Part shown: piece after piece, positions 10,048 through 23,814 of the stretch
Layout: each line of letters begins with the position of its first letter
Numbering within the stretch: position 1 is the stretch's first letter
Assembly (NCBI RefSeq): GCF_006716745.1
Contig: NZ_VFPP01000001.1
Span: 1,922,001-1,986,000 of the forward strand
DNA length: 64,000 nt
Source: Saccharothrix saharensis
Lineage (GTDB): Bacteria; Actinomycetota; Actinomycetes; Mycobacteriales; Pseudonocardiaceae
Direction: 5' to 3'
Made by a program: the position numbers and the translations under genes
The notes under the pieces: generated by a model
What the model was told of the DNA's origin: nothing
Database searches by the model: none
What the model saw: the letters and a program-made list of their open reading frames with translations, nothing else

Positions 10048-10200
10048 TCAAGCAGCGAGGCCGGCTTCCGGCGCCACCGGCCGGCGACGACCGGGCGGCA
10101 TGCTCCGCGGGTACCACCACGCGGCCCGAACCGCGCGGACGACAGCCGCGGCGAGCGCGAGGCCGGCCCGAGCAGCACGGCCGGCGAGGAAGGAGATCAC
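10048..10200 (-). CDS. 50-residue ORF overlapping the ATP-grasp stop
   Basis: A GTG at 10200 overlaps the TGA of the ATP-grasp gene in a GTGA junction, the same coupling used elsewhere in this gene set. The product begins VISFLAGRAARAGLALAAAV, continues with a basic, Trp-rich part (VRAAWWYP), and ends in a Pro/Arg-rich tail with GLAA. It could be a single membrane-inserted or amphipathic helix, a small accessory protein, or a peptide substrate of the neighbouring ligase. I know no family for it, and it may be a chance frame in GC-rich DNA. Confidence 0.4.
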   Translation of the reverse strand: MISFLAGRAARAGLALAAAVVRAVRAAWWYPRSMPPGRRRPVAPEAGLAA

Positions 10201-11471
10201 TCGCGGTAGGTGAAGGCGGCGGTCGCCCGAGCCCTCGAGTTCGCGCCCAGGTTCACCACCGCGCCGCCACCCCGCGGCACCGCCCGGATCATCGTCCCGG
10301 CGAAGCCTTCCGGCGTCACGAACAGGCCCCAGGCCGGCGTCCAGCCGCCTACCTCGCCCGTCGTCACGTCGACCACCGGCTCGGGTTCCGGCACCACGCG
10401 GCGTTGCACCACGTGACTCCGTCGCACGGCCTCGTCCAACAACGCCTTCCATGCTTCTTCGGGCGTCTCCCAGCCCGCGACCACACCGCGGCCACCGAAG
10501 TCCCGCGCCGGTTTCAGGATGAGCTGTTCGCGTTCCTGGAAGCACTGGTCCACGAGGTCGGGGGTGATCCGCCTGGTCCACGGCAGCACGCGATCGACCA
10601 GTGCCCGTTCCTCGGCGGATGTCCAGCGCGCGTCGGACAGCAGCGCGAGTGCCCCTTTGTTGGAGTACAGCGAGCTGTTCATCGGCGTGAAGAGCACGCA
10701 CGTGCCATCGGTGTGGGCCCTCAGGATGCGGGCGACCGCCGGAGCGTTCGCCGGGACGTGGTCGACGGTGAAGTACCGCAGCACCACGTCGACCCGCCCG
10801 CGGCCGACGAACAGCCGTCCGGAACGGGTGCGCACCTCGCCGAGTCCGGCCAGCACCACGTCCAGACCGAGCCGGGACAACGCCTCCAGCACCGAACCGA
10901 GCAGGTCGCGGTACGCGGGCAGGTCGACGTCGGCGCACACCAGGGCCACCACCGGATCGGGTGCCCCCGACGCCACGCGCAGCGACCTGACGACCGCGGC
11001 GGCCGTGTCGACGTACCCCAGCCGGTGCTCCGCGGCGAACGAGGCGAACGCGGGCACGCCCAGCAGTGCCTGGTGCAGCGAGGCGTTGTCCAGACCGCCG
11101 AGGTCGCTGGCGACGTTGAACTCCAGCATCGTGAACGAGGAGCCGTTGCGGTAGAAGTCCGCGCGGCCGTACTGGACGGGCGGCCCGTCGTGGTAGGACG
11201 CGAGCAGGCCCGAGGTCACCGGGTCGATGCCCAGCGCCGAGCAGTAGCGCGTGACGTCGCCGTCGAACACGCGCGAGGGCAACGATGCCAGCAGGTCCAG
11301 CACGGCGATCGTGTCGCGGGCGCACGACAGCAGGTCGTCCTCCGGCACGAAGAGCGGGCGGGACAGCAGGTTGCCCTGCCGGTAGCGCCGGTAGGCGGGA
11401 GGCACCTCCGCCTCACCGACCGCGTCGACCAGTGCCGGGTCCGAGAGGTACCGCGCGGTCACCGGGTTCAT
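10197..11471 (-). CDS. ATP-grasp ligase-like protein
   Basis: 424 residues from the ATG at 11471, which overlaps the TGA of the exporter gene by four bases. The middle carries MLEFNVASDLGGLDN (about residue 115) and the C-terminal half an ATP-binding segment LILKPARDFGGRGVVAGW followed by a VVQRRVVPEPEPVVDV strand. This is the ATP-grasp signature (Lys and Gly-rich loop, then a Glu-rich metal-binding strand), in an arrangement closest to circularly permuted/glutathionylspermidine-synthase-type ligases, which make amide bonds through acyl phosphates. The substrate is unknown. The divergent gene set starts with a gamma-glutamylcyclotransferase, so an add-then-remove glutamyl protection step, as BtrJ/BtrG do in butirosin synthesis, is a reasonable hypothesis. 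Confidence 0.8.
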   Translation of the reverse strand: MNPVTARYLSDPALVDAVGEAEVPPAYRRYRQGNLLSRPLFVPEDDLLSCARDTIAVLDLLASLPSRVFDGDVTRYCSALGIDPVTSGLLASYHDGPPVQYGRADFYRNGSSFTMLEFNVASDLGGLDNASLHQALLGVPAFASFAAEHRLGYVDTAAAVVRSLRVASGAPDPVVALVCADVDLPAYRDLLGSVLEALSRLGLDVVLAGLGEVRTRSGRLFVGRGRVDVVLRYFTVDHVPANAPAVARILRAHTDGTCVLFTPMNSSLYSNKGALALLSDARWTSAEERALVDRVLPWTRRITPDLVDQCFQEREQLILKPARDFGGRGVVAGWETPEEAWKALLDEAVRRSHVVQRRVVPEPEPVVDVTTGEVGGWTPAWGLFVTPEGFAGTMIRAVPRGGGAVVNLGANSRARATAAFTYRE

Positions 11472-12730
11472 GCCGCCACCGTCTCGGGGAGGTCCCGCAG
11501 CCGCCGCAGCGGGGAGACCAGCAGCACCAGGGCGGCGAGGAGAAAACCGGCGCCGGCCGCCACGAGGGCCCACCGCGTGCCGAGCGCCGTGCCCAGGAAG
11601 CCCCCCGTCACGCCACCCAGCGGCAGCGCGCCCCACATCAGGAAGCGCACGCTCGCGTTCATGCGGCCGAGCAGCCGGTCGGGGCAGATCGCCTGGCGGA
11701 AACTGAGGTTCGACACGTTGAACACCGACAGGATCAGGTGCATGAGGAAGTAGCCGACGGCGAAGAAGGCCAGGCCTCGACCCGGAAACGTCAGCGGCAG
11801 CAACAAGAACGCGGGCACGCACGCGAGTTCCGACACCCAGATGGCGCGTGAGCGGCCGATCTTGTCGGCGACCTTGCCCGCCACCAGTGCGCCGACGAGA
11901 CCGCCGGCCCCCGCCAGCGCGAGCATCGCACCGACCGCGGCCTCCGTGAGCACCAGCTCGCGCACCAGCAGCACGATGACCAGCGGCTGGGTGATGCCGT
12001 AGCTGAAGTTGAAGACCGTGGCCGCCACCGTGGTCGCGCGCAGCAGCTTGTTGCCCAGCACGAACTTCAGGCCTTCGGCGATCTCGCCGCGCAGCGAGCG
12101 CGCCTCGGGACGCGCGGGCCGTTCCTCGACCGCGCGTATGCGGGACAGCAGGAACGCCGACGCGAGGTAGCCGACGGAGGTCAGGAAGATCGCGTTCACC
12201 GCTCCGAGCGCCTGGGACAGCACGCCGCCGAGCGCCGGACCCGCGGCCACCGCCGTCGAGCGGGTGGACTCCAGACGCCCGTTGGCGGTCACCAGTCCCG
12301 CGCGCCCGACCAGCGCGGGCACGTACGACTGGTAGGTCACGTCGAACACGACCTGCGCGAGACCCGCCAGGACCACGACGGCGAGCAGTTGCGGGAGCGT
12401 CAGCACGTCGAGCCACCACAGCAGGGGCACGAGTGCGAGCAGACCCGCGCGCAGCAGGTTGGAGGTGATCAGCACGGGACGCCGGCGCACCCGGTCGGCC
12501 AGCACCCCGGCGGGCAACGCGATGAGCAGGAAGCCGATGGTCTGGGCCGCGGACAGCAAGCCCAGCTGGAGCGGTGTCGCGGCGAGCGCGGTCGCGGCCA
12601 GCAGCCGCACGGACACGTCGCCGATCTGGCCCCCGACCACGCTGGCCGTCTGACCGGCCCACAGCAGCCCGAAACCGCTCCCCCGTGCGCTTTCCACCCA
12701 CGCACATTCACACGGGGCCAATTTACGCAC
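11468..12730 (-). CDS. MFS transporter, probable exporter
   Basis: 420 residues with about 12 hydrophobic helices. The MFS loop 2-3 motif appears as GVLADRVRRRPVLI and a second-half counterpart as KVADKIGRSRAIW. The layout matches the enterobactin-exporter/EntS-like MFS_3 group, commonly linked to natural-product export. The start is uncertain: the GTG at 12730 lacks a good ribosome site and a GTG near 12696 (VESARGSG) is an alternative. It heads the minus arm of the divergent cluster; the ATP-grasp gene follows with a 4-base overlap. The promoter must lie in the 71 bases shared with the cyclotransferase gene. Confidence 0.88.
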   Translation of the reverse strand: MRKLAPCECAWVESARGSGFGLLWAGQTASVVGGQIGDVSVRLLAATALAATPLQLGLLSAAQTIGFLLIALPAGVLADRVRRRPVLITSNLLRAGLLALVPLLWWLDVLTLPQLLAVVVLAGLAQVVFDVTYQSYVPALVGRAGLVTANGRLESTRSTAVAAGPALGGVLSQALGAVNAIFLTSVGYLASAFLLSRIRAVEERPARPEARSLRGEIAEGLKFVLGNKLLRATTVAATVFNFSYGITQPLVIVLLVRELVLTEAAVGAMLALAGAGGLVGALVAGKVADKIGRSRAIWVSELACVPAFLLLPLTFPGRGLAFFAVGYFLMHLILSVFNVSNLSFRQAICPDRLLGRMNASVRFLMWGALPLGGVTGGFLGTALGTRWALVAAGAGFLLAALVLLVSPLRRLRDLPETVAA

Positions 12731-12801
12731 AACGCGGTGTGAGGAACGTCACTTGCGCGATTCCGTGATCTGCTTCCCGCTTCGGAGCGGGTTCCGGAAC
12801 A

Positions 12802-13257
12802 GTGGCAGACGTGATCGACCCCACTGGGCGCGGCCGACTCGCGAGCCGACCGGATGCACTGTTCGCATATGGCAGCCTCACCTTCCCGGAAGTGCTCGAA
12901 GTCCTCCTCGACCGCGTACCGGCGTACACACCGGCCGCAGCACCCGGTTGGCGTATTGCGGCATTGCGGAATCGGCCGTTCCCCGTTCTCGTGCCCGGTG
13001 CGGGAGTAGCCGCCGGCGTGCTCCTCACCGACCTCACGTCAGCCGAATGGCGGATCGTCGACGCGTTCGAGGCACGCTCCTACGAACTGCGCCGACTCGA
13101 TCTCGACATCGGCCGCGGTTGGGCTTACGTCGCGGGCGCACAGGCGGACGCCGACTGGGGAGTGCTCGCCCACGACTGGGTCAGGGATGCCTTCGACTTG
13201 ACCCCCTACCTGCGGCGATGCTCCGAATGGCGGCAGACCGCCCCGGTGTGGCGCTGA
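12802..13257 (+). CDS. gamma-glutamylcyclotransferase-like (AIG2/GGCT) protein
   Basis: 151 residues, GTG start preceded by GGAGCGG. The family substrate-binding motif FAYGSL is at residues 21-26, and the expected catalytic glutamate is E90 in VDAFEARSYELRRL. GGCT-fold enzymes release a gamma-glutamyl group as 5-oxoproline; in butirosin synthesis BtrG does this to unmask an amine after an ATP-grasp ligase added the glutamyl group. The divergent neighbour here is an ATP-grasp ligase-like protein, which supports but does not prove a similar role. It is the first gene of the plus arm, with 141 bases to the methyltransferase. Confidence 0.85.
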   Translation: MADVIDPTGRGRLASRPDALFAYGSLTFPEVLEVLLDRVPAYTPAAAPGWRIAALRNRPFPVLVPGAGVAAGVLLTDLTSAEWRIVDAFEARSYELRRLDLDIGRGWAYVAGAQADADWGVLAHDWVRDAFDLTPYLRRCSEWRQTAPVWR

Positions 13258-13398
13258 TCGGCCGCACTGGTGCGGAAAGCCCGGCGGGTACTGGCGCGCG
13301 CCGGTCCCCACCAGGACAGTGGAACGATCACCGTCTCGCCTGTCCAGTTCCCGGCGCACTGTTGAGACAATCCGCCGCGAGTTCCATAGGGAGATTGA

Positions 13399-14319
13399 AT
13401 GACTGTCAGCGTGCGGTCGACGACGGCGTACGCCGTCATCGACACGACATTGCGCGGCCACGCGGAATACCGGGACTTCCAGAAAGGGTCGATGACCCGA
13501 TCGGATTACTCACGCTGGGTCGAGTCGCGGTTCGACGAGCTGAGCGGACTTGGACTGGATCGCGACAAGCAGAACCTGTCCACGCGTTTTCCGCTGGACG
13601 ACCACGCGTGTGTGACGAACGCGCTCGGCACACTCGCGGAAGATGGCCTCGTACCGGGCGCCGACTACCCGGTCGACGCGTTCCACGAGTTCGCCGGACG
13701 CGTGGCGGAAGAATGGGACCACGGCGGGCGAACGACCTTCATCTTCCCCGAGGAAGCCCGGTTGATGTTCGCGCTCACGCAGCAGGTGCGACCGCGCAAC
13801 GCGGTGTTCCTCGGCTCTTACTACGGGTACTGGGCGGTGTGGGCGCTGCCGGCCGTCGCGGCCGCGGGCGGGCGGGCGACGCTCGTCGACATCGACGAGG
13901 GCGTGATGTCGCTGGCGGAGCGCAACATCGCCGCGCTCGGCTACTCCGACGTGGTCGACTTCGTGGTCGCCGACGCCTCCGAGTACGCGCGCACGCTGAG
14001 CGACGTGGACCTGTGCGTGCTCGACGCCGAGGGGCCCCTCGACGCGCCGGACCCCGATCAGAGGGACAAGGCCATCTACTACCCGCACACGCGGGCGGTC
14101 GGCCACGCACTGCCACCGGGCGGGTTGCTCGTGGCGCACAACGTGCTGCTGGAGAACCTGACCGGGAACGCCTACTTCGCGGGCCGCATCGCCAACAACA
14201 AGGCCCAGTTCGCCAAGTGGTCGGCGCACCTGGAGGAGTTCTACGACGTGCACCGCGTGTTCGCGACGTCCGAAGGCGTCGGCGTGTACCGGAGGAACGG
14301 GTTACCGTGTGCGGGGTGA
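13399..14319 (+). CDS. SAM-dependent methyltransferase, O-methyltransferase-like
   Basis: 306 residues; the ATG follows GGGAGATTGA. The Rossmann core starts at about residue 134 with NAVFLGSYYGYWAVWALP and the acidic end of strand 2, ATLVDIDEGVMSLAERNIAALG, then VDFVVADASEY and LCVLDAEGPLDAPD. This looks like the class I catechol/caffeoyl-CoA O-methyltransferase (Methyltransf_3) branch. The N-terminal 130 residues are less typical and may form a substrate lid. The stop lies 13 bases inside the next gene, so the two are translationally coupled. The acceptor is unknown; an oxygen made by the downstream N-oxygenase is one possibility. Confidence 0.82.
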   Translation: MTVSVRSTTAYAVIDTTLRGHAEYRDFQKGSMTRSDYSRWVESRFDELSGLGLDRDKQNLSTRFPLDDHACVTNALGTLAEDGLVPGADYPVDAFHEFAGRVAEEWDHGGRTTFIFPEEARLMFALTQQVRPRNAVFLGSYYGYWAVWALPAVAAAGGRATLVDIDEGVMSLAERNIAALGYSDVVDFVVADASEYARTLSDVDLCVLDAEGPLDAPDPDQRDKAIYYPHTRAVGHALPPGGLLVAHNVLLENLTGNAYFAGRIANNKAQFAKWSAHLEEFYDVHRVFATSEGVGVYRRNGLPCAG

Positions 14320-15362
14320 CCGGACTGTTCATCGGGTGTCCGGCTCTCACCGCGTGCCCGAAGGCGGCGCTGGCCGCGCTCGCCACAGCCGGTACCGGGC
14401 ACGCGGCCGAACCACCCGCCGTACCCCCGGAGTACCGCACCCCGTTCGCGACCTGGTTCGAGCGGGCGAGCGTGCGGCAGGCGCCCCGGCGCGTGCTGGA
14501 CGAGGGCGAGGAGAAGCACTCGTTCTCACCCGACCTCGTCCCGGTGGCCGGGCACGCACTCGTCCGCGCGCTGCCCGGGGACGTGTTCGAGCAGGTGCTC
14601 ACCCAGCACCTGTACCGGTACCTGGACTTCACGACCAAGCTCGAGCACCTGGTCGTGAACCGCACGGTGCTGGGCATCGCCCACCGGACCCTCGGCGTGG
14701 ACCTGCCCGAGGAGATGGTCTTCGACGCTTACAAGATCTACTGCGACGAGGCGTACCACGCGGTGTTCTCGATGGACCTGCTCCGGCAGGTTCGGGCCCG
14801 CACGGGCATCGCGCCCAGGCTCGCGCCCGAGCCGTACTTCATGACCCGGCTGCGGCGGTTGCAGGAGTCGCTGGCGCCGGAGCTGAGGCCGTTGGCGGAA
14901 CTGCTGTTCGTGGTGTGCTCGGAGACGTTGATCTCGGCGACGCTCGCGGAGGTCCCGGACGACGCTCGTGTGCACGCGGCCGTGCGCGACACGATCCGCG
15001 ACCACGCGCAAGACGAGGGACGCCATCACGCGTACTTCGCGTCGTTCCTGAAGTACCTGTGGCACCAGCTCAGCCCTCCTGTGCGCCGCCACCTCGCGCC
15101 GCTGCTGCCCGATCTGGTGCTCGCGTTCCTCCACCCCGACCTGCCCTCGGTGCGGGAGGAACTGCTCGCCTACGGCCTGTCCGCGGACGACTCCGAGCAG
15201 GTGCTCGCCGAGGTGTACGACGAGCGGAAGGTGCGTGAGCACGCCCGGGGCACCGCGCGGCTCACCTTGCGCTACCTCACGTCCGTCGGCGTGCTCGACG
15301 ACCCTGCGGCGCGTGACCGCTTCGAAGAACTCGGACTGCTCGAAGGAGCCCCACCGGAATGA
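14307..15362 (+). CDS. AurF-family diiron N-oxygenase
   Basis: 351 residues from a GTG at 14307, with GGAGG at 14291-14295. The diiron ligand pattern known from AurF and CmlI is complete: E113 (TKLEHLV), E148 and H151 (CDEAYHAVF), E206 (CSETLIS), and H233, E237, H240 (DHAQDEGRHHAYF), four Glu and three His in the right order and spacing. AurF and CmlI oxidise arylamines to nitro or hydroxylamino groups in aureothin and chloramphenicol synthesis; other members act on other amines. No polyketide or shikimate-type gene is nearby, so the substrate is open. It overlaps the methyltransferase before it and the acetyltransferase after it (ATGA). Confidence 0.88.
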   Translation: MCGVTGLFIGCPALTACPKAALAALATAGTGHAAEPPAVPPEYRTPFATWFERASVRQAPRRVLDEGEEKHSFSPDLVPVAGHALVRALPGDVFEQVLTQHLYRYLDFTTKLEHLVVNRTVLGIAHRTLGVDLPEEMVFDAYKIYCDEAYHAVFSMDLLRQVRARTGIAPRLAPEPYFMTRLRRLQESLAPELRPLAELLFVVCSETLISATLAEVPDDARVHAAVRDTIRDHAQDEGRHHAYFASFLKYLWHQLSPPVRRHLAPLLPDLVLAFLHPDLPSVREELLAYGLSADDSEQVLAEVYDERKVREHARGTARLTLRYLTSVGVLDDPAARDRFEELGLLEGAPPE

Positions 15363-15910
15363 CCACCTCCACACCCCTCACCACCGTCCGGGCGGCCACC
15401 ACCGCCGACCTGGAGGACCTGAGGGCGATCTACAACCACGCGGTGCGGCACACCGATGCCACCCTCGACACCGAGGAGAAGACAGCCGAGCAGATGGCCG
15501 CGTGGCTGGCCGGGCACGGTGGCCGCAACGCCGCCGTGGTCGCCGAGCGGGACGGCCACGTCCTCGGTTACGGCACCCTGAGCCCGTTCGCGGCGCGAGG
15601 TGGATACTTCCCCAGCACGGAGATCTCGGTCTACGTGGCGCCCGACGCCCAGGGCATGGGCGTCGGTGGGACGTTGACCGGGTGGCTGGTGGACTTCGCG
15701 CGCGAGGAGGGCTACAGCACCATCATCAGCTTCAACACGGACACGAACATCGCGTCGATCCGGATGATCGAGCGGCACGGGTTCGTGCGCACCGGCTTGA
15801 TCCGGCACATCGGGGTGAAGCTGGGCAGGCTGGTGAACCTCGCGGTCTTCCAGCTGGTCTTCCCCGAGAACCTGCCCCGCTACCAGGACGAACAGGACAC
15901 CACGCCATGA
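15359..15910 (+). CDS. GNAT N-acetyltransferase, PAT/phosphinothricin-type
   Basis: 183 residues. The fold is GNAT: VRAATTADLEDLRAIYNHAV at the N terminus, the acetyl-CoA loop DAQGMGVGGTL near residue 102, and FNTDTNIASIRMIERHGF as motif B. The order and the late FQLVFPENLP tail match the phosphinothricin/MddA-type acetyltransferases that act on small amino acids. In a cluster it could tailor the product or act in self-protection. It overlaps its neighbours by four bases on both sides (ATGA at 15359 and 15907), so the operon is tightly coupled. Confidence 0.87.
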   Translation: MTTSTPLTTVRAATTADLEDLRAIYNHAVRHTDATLDTEEKTAEQMAAWLAGHGGRNAAVVAERDGHVLGYGTLSPFAARGGYFPSTEISVYVAPDAQGMGVGGTLTGWLVDFAREEGYSTIISFNTDTNIASIRMIERHGFVRTGLIRHIGVKLGRLVNLAVFQLVFPENLPRYQDEQDTTP

Positions 15911-16899
15911 CGGGCTTCGCCTTCGACCAGCACGTCCTGCAGCAGCCGGACGTGGTCGCGGCGCTGCTGGACGCCGAACTGCCCGCCCTGGACCCCGACC
16001 GCCCCGTCGTGTTCACGGGGATCGGCACGTCGCTGCACGCCTGCCGAATGGCCGCGGCGTGGACCCGGATCGTCACGGACGGCCGCGTCCGCCCGGCCGC
16101 CATCGACGCGCACGACCTCGCGCTGAGCGAATCCGTGCAGCCGGACGACCAGGTCGTCGTGGTCAGCCACAGGGGCACCAAGCGCTACCCGAACCGGGTG
16201 CTGGCCGCGGCCCGGGAGGCGGGGGCGTCGACGATCGCGATCACCGGCGAGGGGGCCCACACCCCCGTCGCCGACGTGGTCGTGCGCACCTGCCCCCAGG
16301 AGCGGGCGAGCACGCACACGGTGTCGTACACGGCGGCGCTCGTCGTGCTGGGACGCCTCGTGGCGCGGGCGTTCGACGCCACCGGACTGGCCGAGGCGCT
16401 CGCCGAGGCGCCTGGGGCGATGAGGGACACGCTCGCGCTGCCGCTTCCCACCGAAGCCGTGGACGCGGTCGTGTCCGCGTCCCCGATCATCGTCACCGGC
16501 ACCGGACTCGACGCGATCACGGCGGACGAGGTGGCGCTGAAGCTCAAGGAAGGCACCTACCGCTGGGCGGAGGGCCTGCACACGGAGTTCGCGCTGCACG
16601 GCACCCCCGCGGTGTTCTCCTCCTCGACGGCCGCGTTCCTCCTCCGCGCCGCGGATGACGGTGACCGGACCGCCGACCTGCAGGGCCTGCTCGATGAACT
16701 GGACGCCACGACGCTGGTCGTCGCCGAGGACGGCGACGTGCGGTTCGCGGCAACCCACCCCTTGGCCCGTCCACTGGTGACCGTGCTGCCGTTCCAGCGG
16801 CTGGTGTCGGCGGCAGCCGTGCGCCTCGACGCGAACCCCGACCTCACGCACCTGGAAGCCGAACCGTGGGCAAGCGCGATCCGCGCCGTGCAGTTGTGA
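15907..16899 (+). CDS. SIS-domain sugar isomerase-like protein
   Basis: 330 residues with two SIS domains like the C-terminal half of GlmS but no glutaminase domain. Domain one: VVFTGIGTSLHACRMAAAW and VVVSHRGTKRYPNRVLAA, where the usual S-x-S-G-x-T phosphate loop is changed to SHRGTKR. Domain two: IIVTGTGLDAITADEVALK and LKEGTYRWAEGLHTEFALHG, which matches the GlmS KLKE-AxA-ExHGP region. It may isomerise or bind a phosphosugar or amino sugar, or have lost catalysis. It closes the plus arm; a complete GlmS is encoded 7.6 kb downstream. Confidence 0.82.
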   Translation: MTGFAFDQHVLQQPDVVAALLDAELPALDPDRPVVFTGIGTSLHACRMAAAWTRIVTDGRVRPAAIDAHDLALSESVQPDDQVVVVSHRGTKRYPNRVLAAAREAGASTIAITGEGAHTPVADVVVRTCPQERASTHTVSYTAALVVLGRLVARAFDATGLAEALAEAPGAMRDTLALPLPTEAVDAVVSASPIIVTGTGLDAITADEVALKLKEGTYRWAEGLHTEFALHGTPAVFSSSTAAFLLRAADDGDRTADLQGLLDELDATTLVVAEDGDVRFAATHPLARPLVTVLPFQRLVSAAAVRLDANPDLTHLEAEPWASAIRAVQL

Positions 16900-16914
16900 A
16901 CCGGCAGTGTGCCC

Positions 16915-20433: not shown

Positions 20434-23400
20434 ATGTCTGAGAGGGTGCACAACCGCATCGAGGGGCCGGTGACCGGCACGGCAGTGATGGCGGGTGTGA
20501 TCGAGGGGGACGTCGTCGTCACGACGCGGACGGCGCGCGCGGAGGCGCCGTGGCAGGTGATCGTCGCGCTCGTGTCCCTGAGCCTGGTGTCGGTTTCTTT
20601 GGCGGTGTGGGCCGTGCTGTCCCTCGAAGCCGCCGGCCGACTGGTTGCAGTGGTGCTCGTGCTGCTGTCGGTCTCGCTGGTGTGGTGGTCGTTCCGCGCG
20701 GGTCGCACCGCCACGCCGCTGGAGGAGCGCGTGACCGCGTTGCGGGCCGAGGTGGTCGGGCAGTGGCGGGCGGAGGCGGCGGCACGCGGGTTGCAGCGGC
20801 CGAGACCCCTGCGGTTGCGGTGGCGGCCGACCAGCCGCCGGGCCCGCGTCGGTTCCGCGCCGGCCCCGCCGGTCGGCAGCCTGGCCATGGATCCCGAGGA
20901 TCTGCGGCCGGTGGCGCACGACCTGGCGACCGCGTTCCTGGACGGTCCCCACCACCAGTTGGTCGTGCTGGGGGAGCCGGGCTCGGGCAAGACGACGCTG
21001 GCCCTGCTGTTCACCCTGGCCGCCGCCTCCCACGACCTGGTCCCGGTGCTGCTGCCGGTGTCCGGGTGGCACCCGCACGACCCGGCCACCGGCACAGGCG
21101 AGCGCGTCGAGCGTTGGATCGCCCGCCGCGTGGGCGCGGACTACGGGCCGGTGGCCGAGGGCGTGCCGGTGGCGCGGCTGCTGCCGGTGCTGGACGGGCT
21201 CGACGAGATGCCGCCGGAGTCCCTCGGCGCGGCGCTGAAGGAGCTGGAACGCGCGGCGGAAGCAGGTCTGCGGATGGTGCTCACCTGCCGCGGTGCCGAG
21301 TTCGAGGCCGCGGTCGTCGAGGTCGGCGCCCTGACGCGCGCCGCGGTGGTCGACATCGAGCCCGTGCGTCCTGAGGACGTGCGGACCTATCTCACCCAGG
21401 CCGAGGTGGAAGGTCTTGGACCGGACCGCTGGCGCGGCGTGACCGAGGCCCTGACCGGTGATCCGGGCGGCCCGGTGGCCGGGGCGTTGTCCACGCCGTT
21501 GATGATCAGCCTGGCCCGACGAGTCTATCAGCGACCGGGTGACGACCCCGGCAAACTGACCCGACTCAGGACCAGGCGCCAGGTCGAGCATCACCTGCTC
21601 GACCAGTTCCTGGTCACCGTCTACCCCCGCGATAGCGACCGTGCTCGGGCTCGACGCTGGTTGAGCTTCCTCGCCCACCACCTGCGCGACCGGATCGGGG
21701 GCACCGAACTGGAGTGGTGGCGGCTCGCCAGAGCGGTCCCGGGAACCGTGATGACCGCCATGGTCACCGGTGCGGTCACCCTATTGGGCGTACTGGTGGG
21801 CGCTGTCTTGACGATGCCGAATGCCGAATCCATGGAATCGGTCTACGGTGCGGCGTGGGGTGGTGTTGTCGGCCTGGCGGTCGGGTTTCTAGCCGGCCTG
21901 AACACAGCCCGCGCCGCCCACGCCCCAGACCTCCCGTCCCGGCACCGCCCCGGCGTGGTCGCGGCGCGTGGAGTGGGCCGCGACATCGTGACCATCACCG
22001 CGATGCTGTGCGGGACGGCCGCGGTCCTCCTCCTGGGCGCGTTCGTGTTCGCGCGGCCCGTGGCGTTCGAGATCAGCGCCGGCATCCGCGATTTCGTCTT
22101 CGACATCCCGGCATGGCGGTCGGAGAAGAATGTGCTCACCGTGCTCCTACTCGCGCTGATCGTGATCGGCATCGCCGTTCTGACCAACGGCGTGGGTGCG
22201 GGCCGCGCCGGTATGCCGCACCGCGGCGCACCCACCGCGCGTCGGCTGCTGCAGTCGCTGCTGACGGGGTCGATGGCGGGCTTGCTGGTCGGCACACCAT
22301 GGCTGATCTTCGGCGGGATCGTCCAGGAGATGGATGCCGGCGCGCGGTTCTGGCTGTCGACTGCGATGCTCGTCGGCGTGCCGCTGGCAATCGGGCGGTG
22401 GCTCGCGGCCCCGGCCCCTTGGCGCATCGCCCCCTCGCCGCTGTCCGTGCTGCGCGCCGACCGCACGGCGACGTTGCTGACCGGAGCGGTCGGAGGCGTG
22501 TGCAGCGGCCTGGTGATTACCGCCGTTGTGACGCTCATAGCCGAAAGCCCCGAGGGGATGCTCCTCTGGGCCGTGCTGGTGGGCTCGTTGACCGCTGTAA
22601 TCGCGGTCTTCGGGACCGGAACGGCCTGGTCTGTCTACGTCCCGGCCCGAATGTGGCTGGCACTACGCGGTCACTTGCCGTGGCGCCTGACTTCCTTCCT
22701 GCGCGACGCTCACGCCAAGGGAATCCTGCGCAGCACGGGACCCGCCTACCAACTGCGCCACAACCTGCTCCGCGACTACCTGGCCGACCACTGGCAGGAC
22801 ACCCGAATCGCCGGCCCGGCGCCACTGCGGATCCCCCGCGCGCACCCCGCGCTCGCGCTCATCGCGGCAGCCGCCCTGCTGACGGCCGCCACGACCTTGG
22901 TAGAGGCGCAGACCCCTCTGCACCGGGTCTACTACCTGGACAACTACGACTCGTATTGGCACGCTCCTACGCTCCTCTTCAGCGCCGACGGCCAACGAAT
23001 GTCCGCCTCCGCGGAGAGCGGAGGGTGGGGGGCGTGGGAAGTCGAGTCCGGCAGCTCGGTAACCGGAGTCCCGGTTACCGACTACAGCACTCGACGGATG
23101 GGGATCGATGAAAAGGGCGAGTGGTGCACCCTGTACAGGGAAGGTGTGGTGAAACGGGTGCGGTGCCTCGAACCCGCACTCGGTCCCTCTGAGAGCCGAC
23201 GCCTCGAAGCCCTCATCGAAGACTTCTCAGATGAGGACTTCGTCGTCATCAGCCCCGACGGCGCCAAGTTGGCCGTGGCTGGATTGCACGGCAGCCTTTC
23301 TCTGGTGGAGCTTGACTTCACGGCGCCCACCATGACCACGGTCGCGAGAACCGTCGGCCCGTCGCTACAGTACGCTATGACGTTCAGCGCCAACAGTCGT

Positions 23401-23814
23401 GTGTTGGCCGTGGCAAACGTCGATTCCATCAGCGTGATCGGTATTGACGTGCCGCGAGCCTGGTCGCAGTCGAACCCCGGGATTGTCGTCGACATGGCGG
23501 TCAGTAATGACGGCGAACACGTCTCCACGACCGACGAAGACGGCCGAATCCACCTGTGGACCAGGGACGGCAAGCATTCCGTCACCACCTCGCGCTACGC
23601 CTCGACGGCGTTCAGTCCCGACAGCCGGATCCTCGCCGTCGCAGGAGAAGACGGCGAGATCACCTTATGGGACACCGCAAACCGCGAACGCACAGGCGTC
23701 CTGGACACACACCGCACACCGATCGACGACCTGGCCTTCAGCCCGGACGGCCGAATGCTGGCCACGGCGCATGGCGGGCGCCGCGTGTATCTGTGGCACA
23801 TGTCGATGCCTTGA
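20434..23814 (+). CDS. membrane-embedded NACHT-WD40 protein
   Basis: 1126 residues from the ATG at 20434; a longer frame to 20374 adds no conserved sequence. Residues 6-29 (HNRIEGPVTGTAVMAGVIEG then DVVV) form a Gly-spaced hydrophobic motif like those placed at the N termini of actinobacterial NLR proteins. Two membrane helices (VIVALVSLSLVSVSLAVWAV and LVAVVLVLLSVSLVWW) precede the NACHT domain, which has Walker A GEPGSGKT (K186) and Walker B VLDGLDE (D254-E258). About eight more helices follow from residue 430 to 760. After FLRDAHAKGILR and a last helix come about six WD40 units (FSPDGRMLATAHG is the last), enough for one propeller. The decayed gene at 6259 is a relative lacking the propeller. 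A conflict/immune switch role is inferred. Confidence 0.88.
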   Translation: MSERVHNRIEGPVTGTAVMAGVIEGDVVVTTRTARAEAPWQVIVALVSLSLVSVSLAVWAVLSLEAAGRLVAVVLVLLSVSLVWWSFRAGRTATPLEERVTALRAEVVGQWRAEAAARGLQRPRPLRLRWRPTSRRARVGSAPAPPVGSLAMDPEDLRPVAHDLATAFLDGPHHQLVVLGEPGSGKTTLALLFTLAAASHDLVPVLLPVSGWHPHDPATGTGERVERWIARRVGADYGPVAEGVPVARLLPVLDGLDEMPPESLGAALKELERAAEAGLRMVLTCRGAEFEAAVVEVGALTRAAVVDIEPVRPEDVRTYLTQAEVEGLGPDRWRGVTEALTGDPGGPVAGALSTPLMISLARRVYQRPGDDPGKLTRLRTRRQVEHHLLDQFLVTVYPRDSDRARARRWLSFLAHHLRDRIGGTELEWWRLARAVPGTVMTAMVTGAVTLLGVLVGAVLTMPNAESMESVYGAAWGGVVGLAVGFLAGLNTARAAHAPDLPSRHRPGVVAARGVGRDIVTITAMLCGTAAVLLLGAFVFARPVAFEISAGIRDFVFDIPAWRSEKNVLTVLLLALIVIGIAVLTNGVGAGRAGMPHRGAPTARRLLQSLLTGSMAGLLVGTPWLIFGGIVQEMDAGARFWLSTAMLVGVPLAIGRWLAAPAPWRIAPSPLSVLRADRTATLLTGAVGGVCSGLVITAVVTLIAESPEGMLLWAVLVGSLTAVIAVFGTGTAWSVYVPARMWLALRGHLPWRLTSFLRDAHAKGILRSTGPAYQLRHNLLRDYLADHWQDTRIAGPAPLRIPRAHPALALIAAAALLTAATTLVEAQTPLHRVYYLDNYDSYWHAPTLLFSADGQRMSASAESGGWGAWEVESGSSVTGVPVTDYSTRRMGIDEKGEWCTLYREGVVKRVRCLEPALGPSESRRLEALIEDFSDEDFVVISPDGAKLAVAGLHGSLSLVELDFTAPTMTTVARTVGPSLQYAMTFSANSRVLAVANVDSISVIGIDVPRAWSQSNPGIVVDMAVSNDGEHVSTTDEDGRIHLWTRDGKHSVTTSRYASTAFSPDSRILAVAGEDGEITLWDTANRERTGVLDTHRTPIDDLAFSPDGRMLATAHGGRRVYLWHMSMP

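Follow-up and report, generated by a model that had tools for sequence, protein, structure and literature searches.

A compact cluster of seven genes, located on a 64-kb stretch of DNA of Saccharothrix saharensis (bases 1922001-1986000 of the 8.92-Mb single-contig genome; the whole stretch is called the window below), is more than a chance neighborhood, as its gene set is also found in three other genomes. Its proteins suggest a pathway in which glutamic acid acts as the carrier of a hydroxylamine that is released by a gamma-glutamylcyclotransferase (GGCT), a reading to which we give a probability of roughly 0.45. The cluster occupies positions 10197-16899 and consists of two divergent arms. 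On the minus strand, the gene of an exporter of the major facilitator superfamily (MFS) overlaps that of an ATP-grasp-like ligase by 4 nt. The plus arm carries, in this order, the genes for GGCT, an S-adenosylmethionine (SAM)-dependent enzyme, an AurF-like diiron oxygenase, a GNAT N-acetyltransferase, and a protein with SIS domains; a gap of 141 bp separates the first two, and the following ones overlap by 13 nt (SAM enzyme/oxygenase), 4 nt (oxygenase/GNAT), and 4 nt (GNAT/SIS). A preliminary description of the window had counted eight genes in overlapping arms. Seven of these were confirmed, while the eighth, a 50-codon open reading frame (ORF), is not conserved and has no family match; the overlaps hold for the minus-arm pair and the last four genes of the plus arm and not for the GGCT and SAM-enzyme genes. 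Family scans revealed no polyketide synthase (PKS), nonribosomal peptide synthetase (NRPS), or carrier protein among the cluster genes, and the recurrence of the set bore out the view of a dedicated, biosynthetic-looking unit that lacks a carrier and has its own exporter.

In the proposed pathway, of which we infer the reactions, their order, and the product, the oxygenase would act on L-glutamine and oxidize its side-chain amide, giving gamma-glutamyl hydroxamate. The SAM enzyme, which resembles catechol-O-methyltransferase (COMT), would then alkylate the hydroxamate oxygen, most simply by methylation. GGCT would split off the gamma-glutamyl carrier as 5-oxoproline to give hydroxylamine or an O-alkyl hydroxylamine, and it would in this way assume the role that an AsnB-type hydroxyamidotransferase has in trichostatin biosynthesis. 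Incorporation of the freed amine, as an amide and/or as an adduct of a sugar or ketone, might fall to the ATP-grasp-like ligase together with the GlmS-like SIS protein. The acetyltransferase, which is of the PAT/ArsN1 kind, could protect the producer or tailor the product, and the MFS pump would export the latter. A precedent for the first steps exists: TsnB7 and DnfAB are reported to make glutamine hydroxamate, after which TsnB9 or DnfC transfers or releases hydroxylamine (PMC11160463, PMC5719088). As proposed, the cluster belongs to this known glutamine-hydroxamate kind of pathway, with a gene set that appears to be new.

The nearest characterized relative found of the cluster oxygenase is not AurF but WP_313772112 of Streptomyces angustmyceticus, which was retrieved in a search of annotated plasmids. 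This protein is SaAmOx, an orthologue of TsnB7 of trichostatin biosynthesis (PMC13418202). In E. coli, SaAmOx and its accessory subunit formed glutamyl hydroxamate, the hydroxylamine of which is shifted onto benzoic acid by SaHAT, an enzyme of the AsnB type (PMC13418202). The cluster oxygenase is 42% identical to SaAmOx over 306 residues. In a tree of 16 sequences, 14 of them, including SaAmOx and the cluster oxygenase, were split from AurF and CmlI with a support of 100/100, and the three cluster-borne oxygenases formed one group (90/92); AurF and CmlI entered this tree as aligned stretches only and sit on long branches, and the order at several inner forks is open. Seven residues (E113, E148, H151, E206, H233, E237, and H240) are invariant in the oxygenase alignment and match AurF/CmlI positions. 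They correspond to the six metal ligands and the seventh histidine of ferritin-like diiron N-oxygenases. As the tree places the oxygenase with an enzyme that oxidizes the amide of glutamine, the gamma-glutamyl moiety is more likely to be a carrier for N-O bond formation. The pathway of the preliminary description is thereby retained in outline, with this carrier in place of the protecting mask it had envisaged, and its plain N-oxidation of an amine is disfavored.

The same grouping bears on a reading in which the oxygenase would turn a small amine into a nitro, nitroso, or nitronate compound, along the lines of the enteromycin class or of Dob-type hydrazone chemistry, and the SAM enzyme would O-methylate it. 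In the enteromycin class, it is a glycine nitronate that is O-methylated; the adjacency of diiron-oxygenase and O-methyltransferase-like genes is reminiscent of the pair described there, and N-oxidations of various kinds are reported from the oxygenase superfamily. However, the cluster oxygenase groups with the amide oxygenase, away from AurF and CmlI, and the cluster has neither carrier protein nor NRPS, whereas the akazaoxime pathway is described as using NRPS-bound glycine. We consider such chemistry very unlikely here. O-methylation, which the preliminary description had also suggested, could take place in the hydroxamate pathway, although the data do not tell it apart from other SAM-dependent alkyl transfers.

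Among the loci examined, the combination of such an oxygenase with GGCT is particular to the cluster. GGCT was present in all four cluster loci, including that of Saccharothrix algeriensis, in which the oxygenase gene is not intact. In profile searches of all six frames, the GGCT, SIS, SAM-enzyme, and ATP-grasp families were each absent from all 18 further oxygenase loci (seven from the genome search, from which the four weakest places and the S. algeriensis remnant were excluded; four of eight plasmid matches; and the seven matches outside the own genome of a later search). Nor did profile searches detect GGCT in any of the 22 further ATP-grasp-family loci (L062-L081, L108, and L109; 20 from the genome search and two of five plasmid matches). 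Ten of the 18 oxygenase loci have an AsnB gene instead (L022, L023, L025, L027, L107, L110, L112, L146, L147, and, from its annotation, L111). A match to the AsnB-type TsnB9, searched with SaHAT by tblastn, was not obtained in the window or in the loci of S. algeriensis (L061), G600 (L102), and G448 (L103), the last two being the further cluster-bearing genomes. The GGCT motifs YGSL and FE...Y, with the presumed catalytic residue Glu90, are invariant in the four clusters.

In butirosin biosynthesis, BtrJ and BtrG follow a protecting-group logic in which a gamma-glutamyl mask is put on and later taken off. By analogy, the ATP-grasp enzyme of the cluster could add gamma-glutamyl to an amine, the oxygenase and SAM enzyme could modify the masked compound, and GGCT could unmask it, as the preliminary description had it. 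The ligase and GGCT do occur together in all four copies, and the GGCT motifs are intact. Yet none of the 22 other ATP-grasp loci has a GGCT, so that the ligase is not a general partner of this enzyme, and the grouping of the oxygenase with the amide oxygenase fits poorly. A masking role of the ATP-grasp enzyme is thus rather unlikely.

The gene contexts of the ATP-grasp family vary, and locus L062 has two tandem copies. Among ten of its loci for which the genes were printed, eight looked biosynthetic by eye and two (L076 and L077) did not. A second ATP-grasp protein from the G448 locus, of the L-amino-acid-ligase type, has a match in 14 of the 22 loci and none in the window, L061, or L102. 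In L022 (genome G008; genes named by eye) and in L107, L110, and L112, all three from Streptomyces plasmids, the oxygenase gene lies beside AsnB, PqqD-like, nucleotidyltransferase, and ABC/MFS genes; judged by these genes, the four loci may represent another, unassigned, hydroxamate-type cluster.

The SAM enzyme is predicted to have a COMT-like fold. The best of five AlphaFold models had a pLDDT of 84.5 (68-81 for the other four), and the top Foldseek matches of this model were family-3/COMT-type O-methyltransferases. COMT binds its substrate through a metal. As hydroxamate is a chelator comparable to catechol, O-alkylation of a hydroxamate would be chemically natural for such an enzyme. Two other identities were dismissed. 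The signatures of the AZE synthases AzeJ and VioH, namely FY17-18, PFNxxGN, and RxxYYxxC (PMC11794875), are absent, apart from an FY at position 281, and with TsnB8 only a stretch of 46 residues aligns (E 0.002).

A different use of SAM was also weighed, in which the enzyme would move a 3-amino-3-carboxypropyl group to the hydroxamate oxygen and release methylthioadenosine; the resulting gamma-glutamyl-canaline would be converted by GGCT to L-canaline. A methylthioadenosine/methionine-salvage operon lies directly beyond the cluster GGCT in G448, and MtnB is present in three of 41 genomes of the genus to which G600 and G448 belong, both cluster-bearing ones included (Fisher 0.0037). However, this test was chosen after the adjacency in G448 had been noticed, so that only G600 is an independent case (two of 40 others with MtnB, about 0.05), and the salvage operon of G600 is not on the contig of the cluster but on a different one, next to an NRPS gene. 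The operon of the third MtnB genome has a DUF3419 protein nearby, which we take to be a BtaA-like aminocarboxypropyl transferase. The genus of the window is uninformative on the methylthioadenosine link, as the salvage enzyme ARD was found in 25 of 25 genomes searched. Canaline has about the size of the amino-acid analogues on which PAT/ArsN1 acetyltransferases act; against the aminocarboxypropyl transfer stand the COMT-like fold and the absence of AZE-synthase signatures. Only carbamoyl chemistry turned up in the literature on canaline in Streptomyces gene clusters. We regard the aminocarboxypropyl transfer as quite improbable. It is highly doubtful that L-canaline, or an aminooxy antimetabolite derived from it, is the product of the cluster, with the GNAT enzyme protecting the producer and the ATP-grasp and SIS proteins elaborating the compound.

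Locus L135 (6211-16468; genome G969) contains a methionine-salvage operon with genes for a DUF3419 protein and for an ATP-grasp protein of the L-amino-acid-ligase type nearby; by eye, an MFS transporter and a small protein resembling a carrier are encoded there as well.

The conservation of the unit was followed with two of its proteins. When named genome contigs were scanned with the ATP-grasp protein, an approach that detects close relatives only, a single relative was returned, S. algeriensis DSM 44581. Its DNA matches the window at 10175-14456 (89.6%) and 15299-16905 (92.8%), and the remainder of the 21-kb locus (L061) has no match to the window. The shared block therefore runs from the end of the ATP-grasp gene to just past the SIS stop codon. 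The 842-bp hole between the two matches lies within the oxygenase gene, pieces of both ends of which remain. This gene is a deletion remnant (L061 6973-7153), and the other six genes are open. Another gene of the oxygenase group is present elsewhere in the S. algeriensis genome (L024) and reads as 314 amino acids. For the six genes, dN/dS between the window and S. algeriensis was 0.23-0.50. A recent horizontal transfer between these two Saccharothrix genomes was also weighed: the dS of the cluster genes (0.12-0.29) was at least that of rpoB (0.12 over a stretch of 1797 nt), although the flanks are not common to both genomes. Relaxed selection in S. algeriensis after the loss of the oxygenase was rejected: at sites conserved in the outgroups, summed over the six genes, 16 changes were specific to S. 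algeriensis and 21 to the window.

With the SAM enzyme as the query, matches at E<=0.001 were obtained in 199 of 397 genomes of the order, among which S. algeriensis was not listed. Beyond the own genome, strong matches came only from G600 (63%) and G448 (53%), the next being at 2.5e-10. Both belong to one genus of another family, which yielded these two among 160 genomes. In a draw of 394 genomes from the class, a match at E<=1e-30 was found in the window's own genome only, and 34 pattern matches in viral contigs did not include a relative. The cluster of G600 is complete, with its seven genes (45-68% by tblastn) arranged divergently as in the window. In G448, the genes for the SAM enzyme, oxygenase, GNAT, SIS, and ATP-grasp proteins stand in one row, and GGCT is ~5 kb off; in between are a different MFS gene, the L-amino-acid-ligase-type second ATP-grasp gene, and genes for a FemAB-like and a regulator-like protein. 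Protein identities of the set in these two genomes are 43-70%. For S. algeriensis, G600, and G448, respectively, the orthologues are 85, 62, and 52% identical (SAM enzyme) and 88, 50, and 51% (ATP-grasp protein), and the MFS orthologue is 93% (S. algeriensis) and 66% (G600) identical. Synteny in relatives had been named beforehand as the test that could refute the unit; the gene set was found together in S. algeriensis, G600, and G448. Adjoining the G600 cluster (L102 15658-19767), genes for a haem-oxygenase-like iron protein, a weakly U32-like protein, and an ATP-grasp protein were seen.

Several observations weigh against the glutamine-hydroxamate pathway. SaAmOx is on its own branch with the oxygenases of L025 and L027 (100/100, length 1.7), and no characterized member of the group of 14 is closer to the cluster oxygenase. 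With the inner forks open, membership of a broad group is shown and not a close pair. The amide oxidized could be other than that of glutamine, and the authors of the work on actinonin and matlystatin prefer the oxidation of a different amide (PMC5719088). As the S. algeriensis copy is without an intact oxygenase gene, its six other genes may work alone, the copy may be decaying, or the protein of L024 may substitute. A tblastn match to TsnB6, the accessory subunit on which TsnB7 and SaAmOx draw, was found neither in the window nor in the loci of S. algeriensis (L061), G600 (L102), and G448 (L103). TsnB6 was not matched either in the AsnB-linked oxygenase loci L022, L023, L107, L110, and L112. 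The metal site of the SAM enzyme is uncertain: N248 aligns with the metal-binding Asn of the family, H247 takes the second Asp position, and the first Asp would be D209 by eye (strand motif VDLCVLDAE), while HMMER alignments place it ~nine residues later. The roles given to the ATP-grasp, SIS, and GNAT proteins are guesses from family membership, and the ATP-grasp assignment appears weak. The protein of the window has below-cut-off matches only (CP_ATPgrasp_2 at 19.2 bits, cut-off 32); among the four orthologues at E<=0.1, CP_ATPgrasp_1 matches all and CP_ATPgrasp_2 three (best 8.3e-5). Searches of solved structures with this protein gave nothing useful, and its AlphaFold model (pLDDT 42.5) is too poor to use. 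By its matches, the acetyltransferase is placed in the PAT/ArsN1 superfamily only, all NCBIfam matches being below the cut-offs (ArsN1a 1.2e-30, 106.4 bits against a cut-off of 170; ArsN1b 9e-25; PAT 3.6e-20, 72.4 bits against 300).

The SIS protein aligns with GlmS/NagB-II and keeps, in all four clusters, a Lys, a Glu, and a His at identical spacing, which we take to be the isomerase residues of GlmS. These residues, and the lack of a glutaminase domain, would suit a split GlmS, in which GGCT would free a glutamine-derived hydroxylamine and the SIS protein would add it to a keto sugar. The phosphate loop SQSGET (SxSGxT) is, however, replaced by SHRGTK, so that a sugar phosphate may not bind, which also counts against the role proposed above, and no sugar gene was recognized among the flanking genes scanned. 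The split-GlmS route seems decidedly unlikely.

At its N-terminus, the oxygenase has the motif MCGxxG(L/M)F(V/I/L)GC-x5-CP (window 14307-14360), with three cysteines that are invariant in the six aligned carriers (window, G600, G448, G008, Streptomyces sp. NBC_00853, and G021). The motif is lacking in SaAmOx. Its first residues resemble what we take to be the start of class II amidotransferases (MCGIxG) but are too short for that domain. The motif might replace TsnB6. The N-terminal part of the SAM enzyme, suspected by eye to be a TsnB6 homologue, was discarded as such (hhalign probability 0.1%). A second gene of the oxygenase group is present in the genome of the window (G000:C1:8188160-8189077; L028), 41% identical and in another gene context.

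A masked hydroxylamine that is O-alkylated and then unmasked is known from the D-cycloserine pathway, which also has an ATP-grasp step, and unmasking by a GGCT (BtrG) from that of butirosin. Both differ from the cluster in mask, enzymes, and gene order. The TsnB6-7-9 system of trichostatin and benzohydroxamate (SaAmOx-AS, SaAmOx, and SaHAT) shares with the cluster the broad oxygenase group, with the 42% identity given above, and a gamma-glutamyl-bound hydroxylamine, which in the cluster is a predicted carrier; unlike that system, the cluster shows no match to TsnB9 or TsnB6 and has no PKS (PMC13418202). It has GGCT, the SIS protein, the ATP-grasp-like ligase, the COMT-like enzyme, and the PAT-like GNAT instead. 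In the Dnf pathway of Alcaligenes (DnfABC), compared here by its description, glutamine hydroxamate supplies free hydroxylamine, and DnfC, an amidotransferase with a type 1 GATase domain, has been proposed and is reported to release it, in place of the predicted GGCT (PMC11160463). The glutamic acid side chain also carries an N-X nucleophile in the fosfazinomycin and kinamycin routes, which include an acetylation step, but the cargo there is hydrazine, loaded by a glutamine-synthetase homologue and released by FzmA, an asparagine-synthetase homologue (PMC6133997). In the case of actinonin and matlystatin, an AurF-like enzyme is proposed to oxidize an amide, but it is accompanied by an AsnB-like protein and other assembly enzymes, none of which is present in the cluster (PMC5719088). 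The claim that no pathway with this gene set had been described held in the literature searched, among the matches listed, MIBiG being outside the search; nor did the literature yield a gene cluster combining GGCT with a hydroxamate or work on O-methyl hydroxamates close to this one.

In antibiotics and enzyme inhibitors, an N-O bond is a rare and valuable feature. Of the glutamine-hydroxamate pathways, the two found in the literature are described as handing on hydroxylamine via the AsnB-type TsnB9 or the type 1 amidotransferase DnfC. The cluster predicts a third release route, via GGCT, possibly with alkylation while the nitrogen is still masked, which could be used for the biological making of alkoxyamines. 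With seven genes on 6.7 kb and neither PKS nor NRPS, the unit is small enough to be expressed whole and to have its product determined. A search that relies on PKS, NRPS, or carrier genes can be expected to overlook it.

The features of the cluster are collected in the table; the Pfam matches of the AurF-like, GGCT, SIS, GNAT, MFS, and SAM proteins are all above the curated cut-off.

Features of the seven-gene cluster and its immediate surroundings (positions in the window)
Feature	Position	Strand	Basis or remark
50-codon ORF	10048..10200	-	No family match; not conserved
ATP-grasp-like ligase, 424 aa	10197..11471	-	Weak Pfam matches; distant kin of circularly permuted ATP-grasp/glutathionylspermidine-synthase families
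MFS exporter, 420 aa	11468..12730	-	Pfam MFS_1 1.4e-40
Short divergent intergenic region	12731..12801	.	Separates the two arms; mostly conserved in S. algeriensis
Gamma-glutamylcyclotransferase (GGACT/AIG2-like), 151 aa	12802..13257	+	Pfam GGACT 2.4e-13
SAM-dependent alkyltransferase, predicted COMT-like fold, extra N-terminal helical part, 306 aa	13399..14319	+	Methyltransf_24 3.9e-9
Ferritin-like diiron oxygenase, 351 aa, GTG start	14307..15362	+	Pfam AurF 6.2e-28
GNAT N-acetyltransferase, PAT/ArsN1 kind, 183 aa	15359..15910	+	Pfam Acetyltransf_1 2e-15
Double-SIS protein, like the GlmS isomerase half, no glutaminase domain, 330 aa	15907..16899	+	Pfam SIS 1.6e-11

The intergenic region is probably the shared promoter region of both arms. 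The 50-codon ORF has no counterpart in the S. algeriensis copy; as the DNA match ends at 10175, it is outside the shared block except for its first bases, and it probably does not belong to the unit. A reading of this ORF as the precursor of a ribosomally synthesized and post-translationally modified peptide was dropped, as it is not conserved. Scans for tRNAs and Rfam families found nothing. Flanking genes matched the families of a GAF protein, a DJ-1/PfpI protein, a methyltransferase, a serine/threonine kinase, and a NACHT/WD40 protein, with no evident link to the cluster. The last of these matches belongs to a large protein encoded downstream of the cluster, at 20446-23814.

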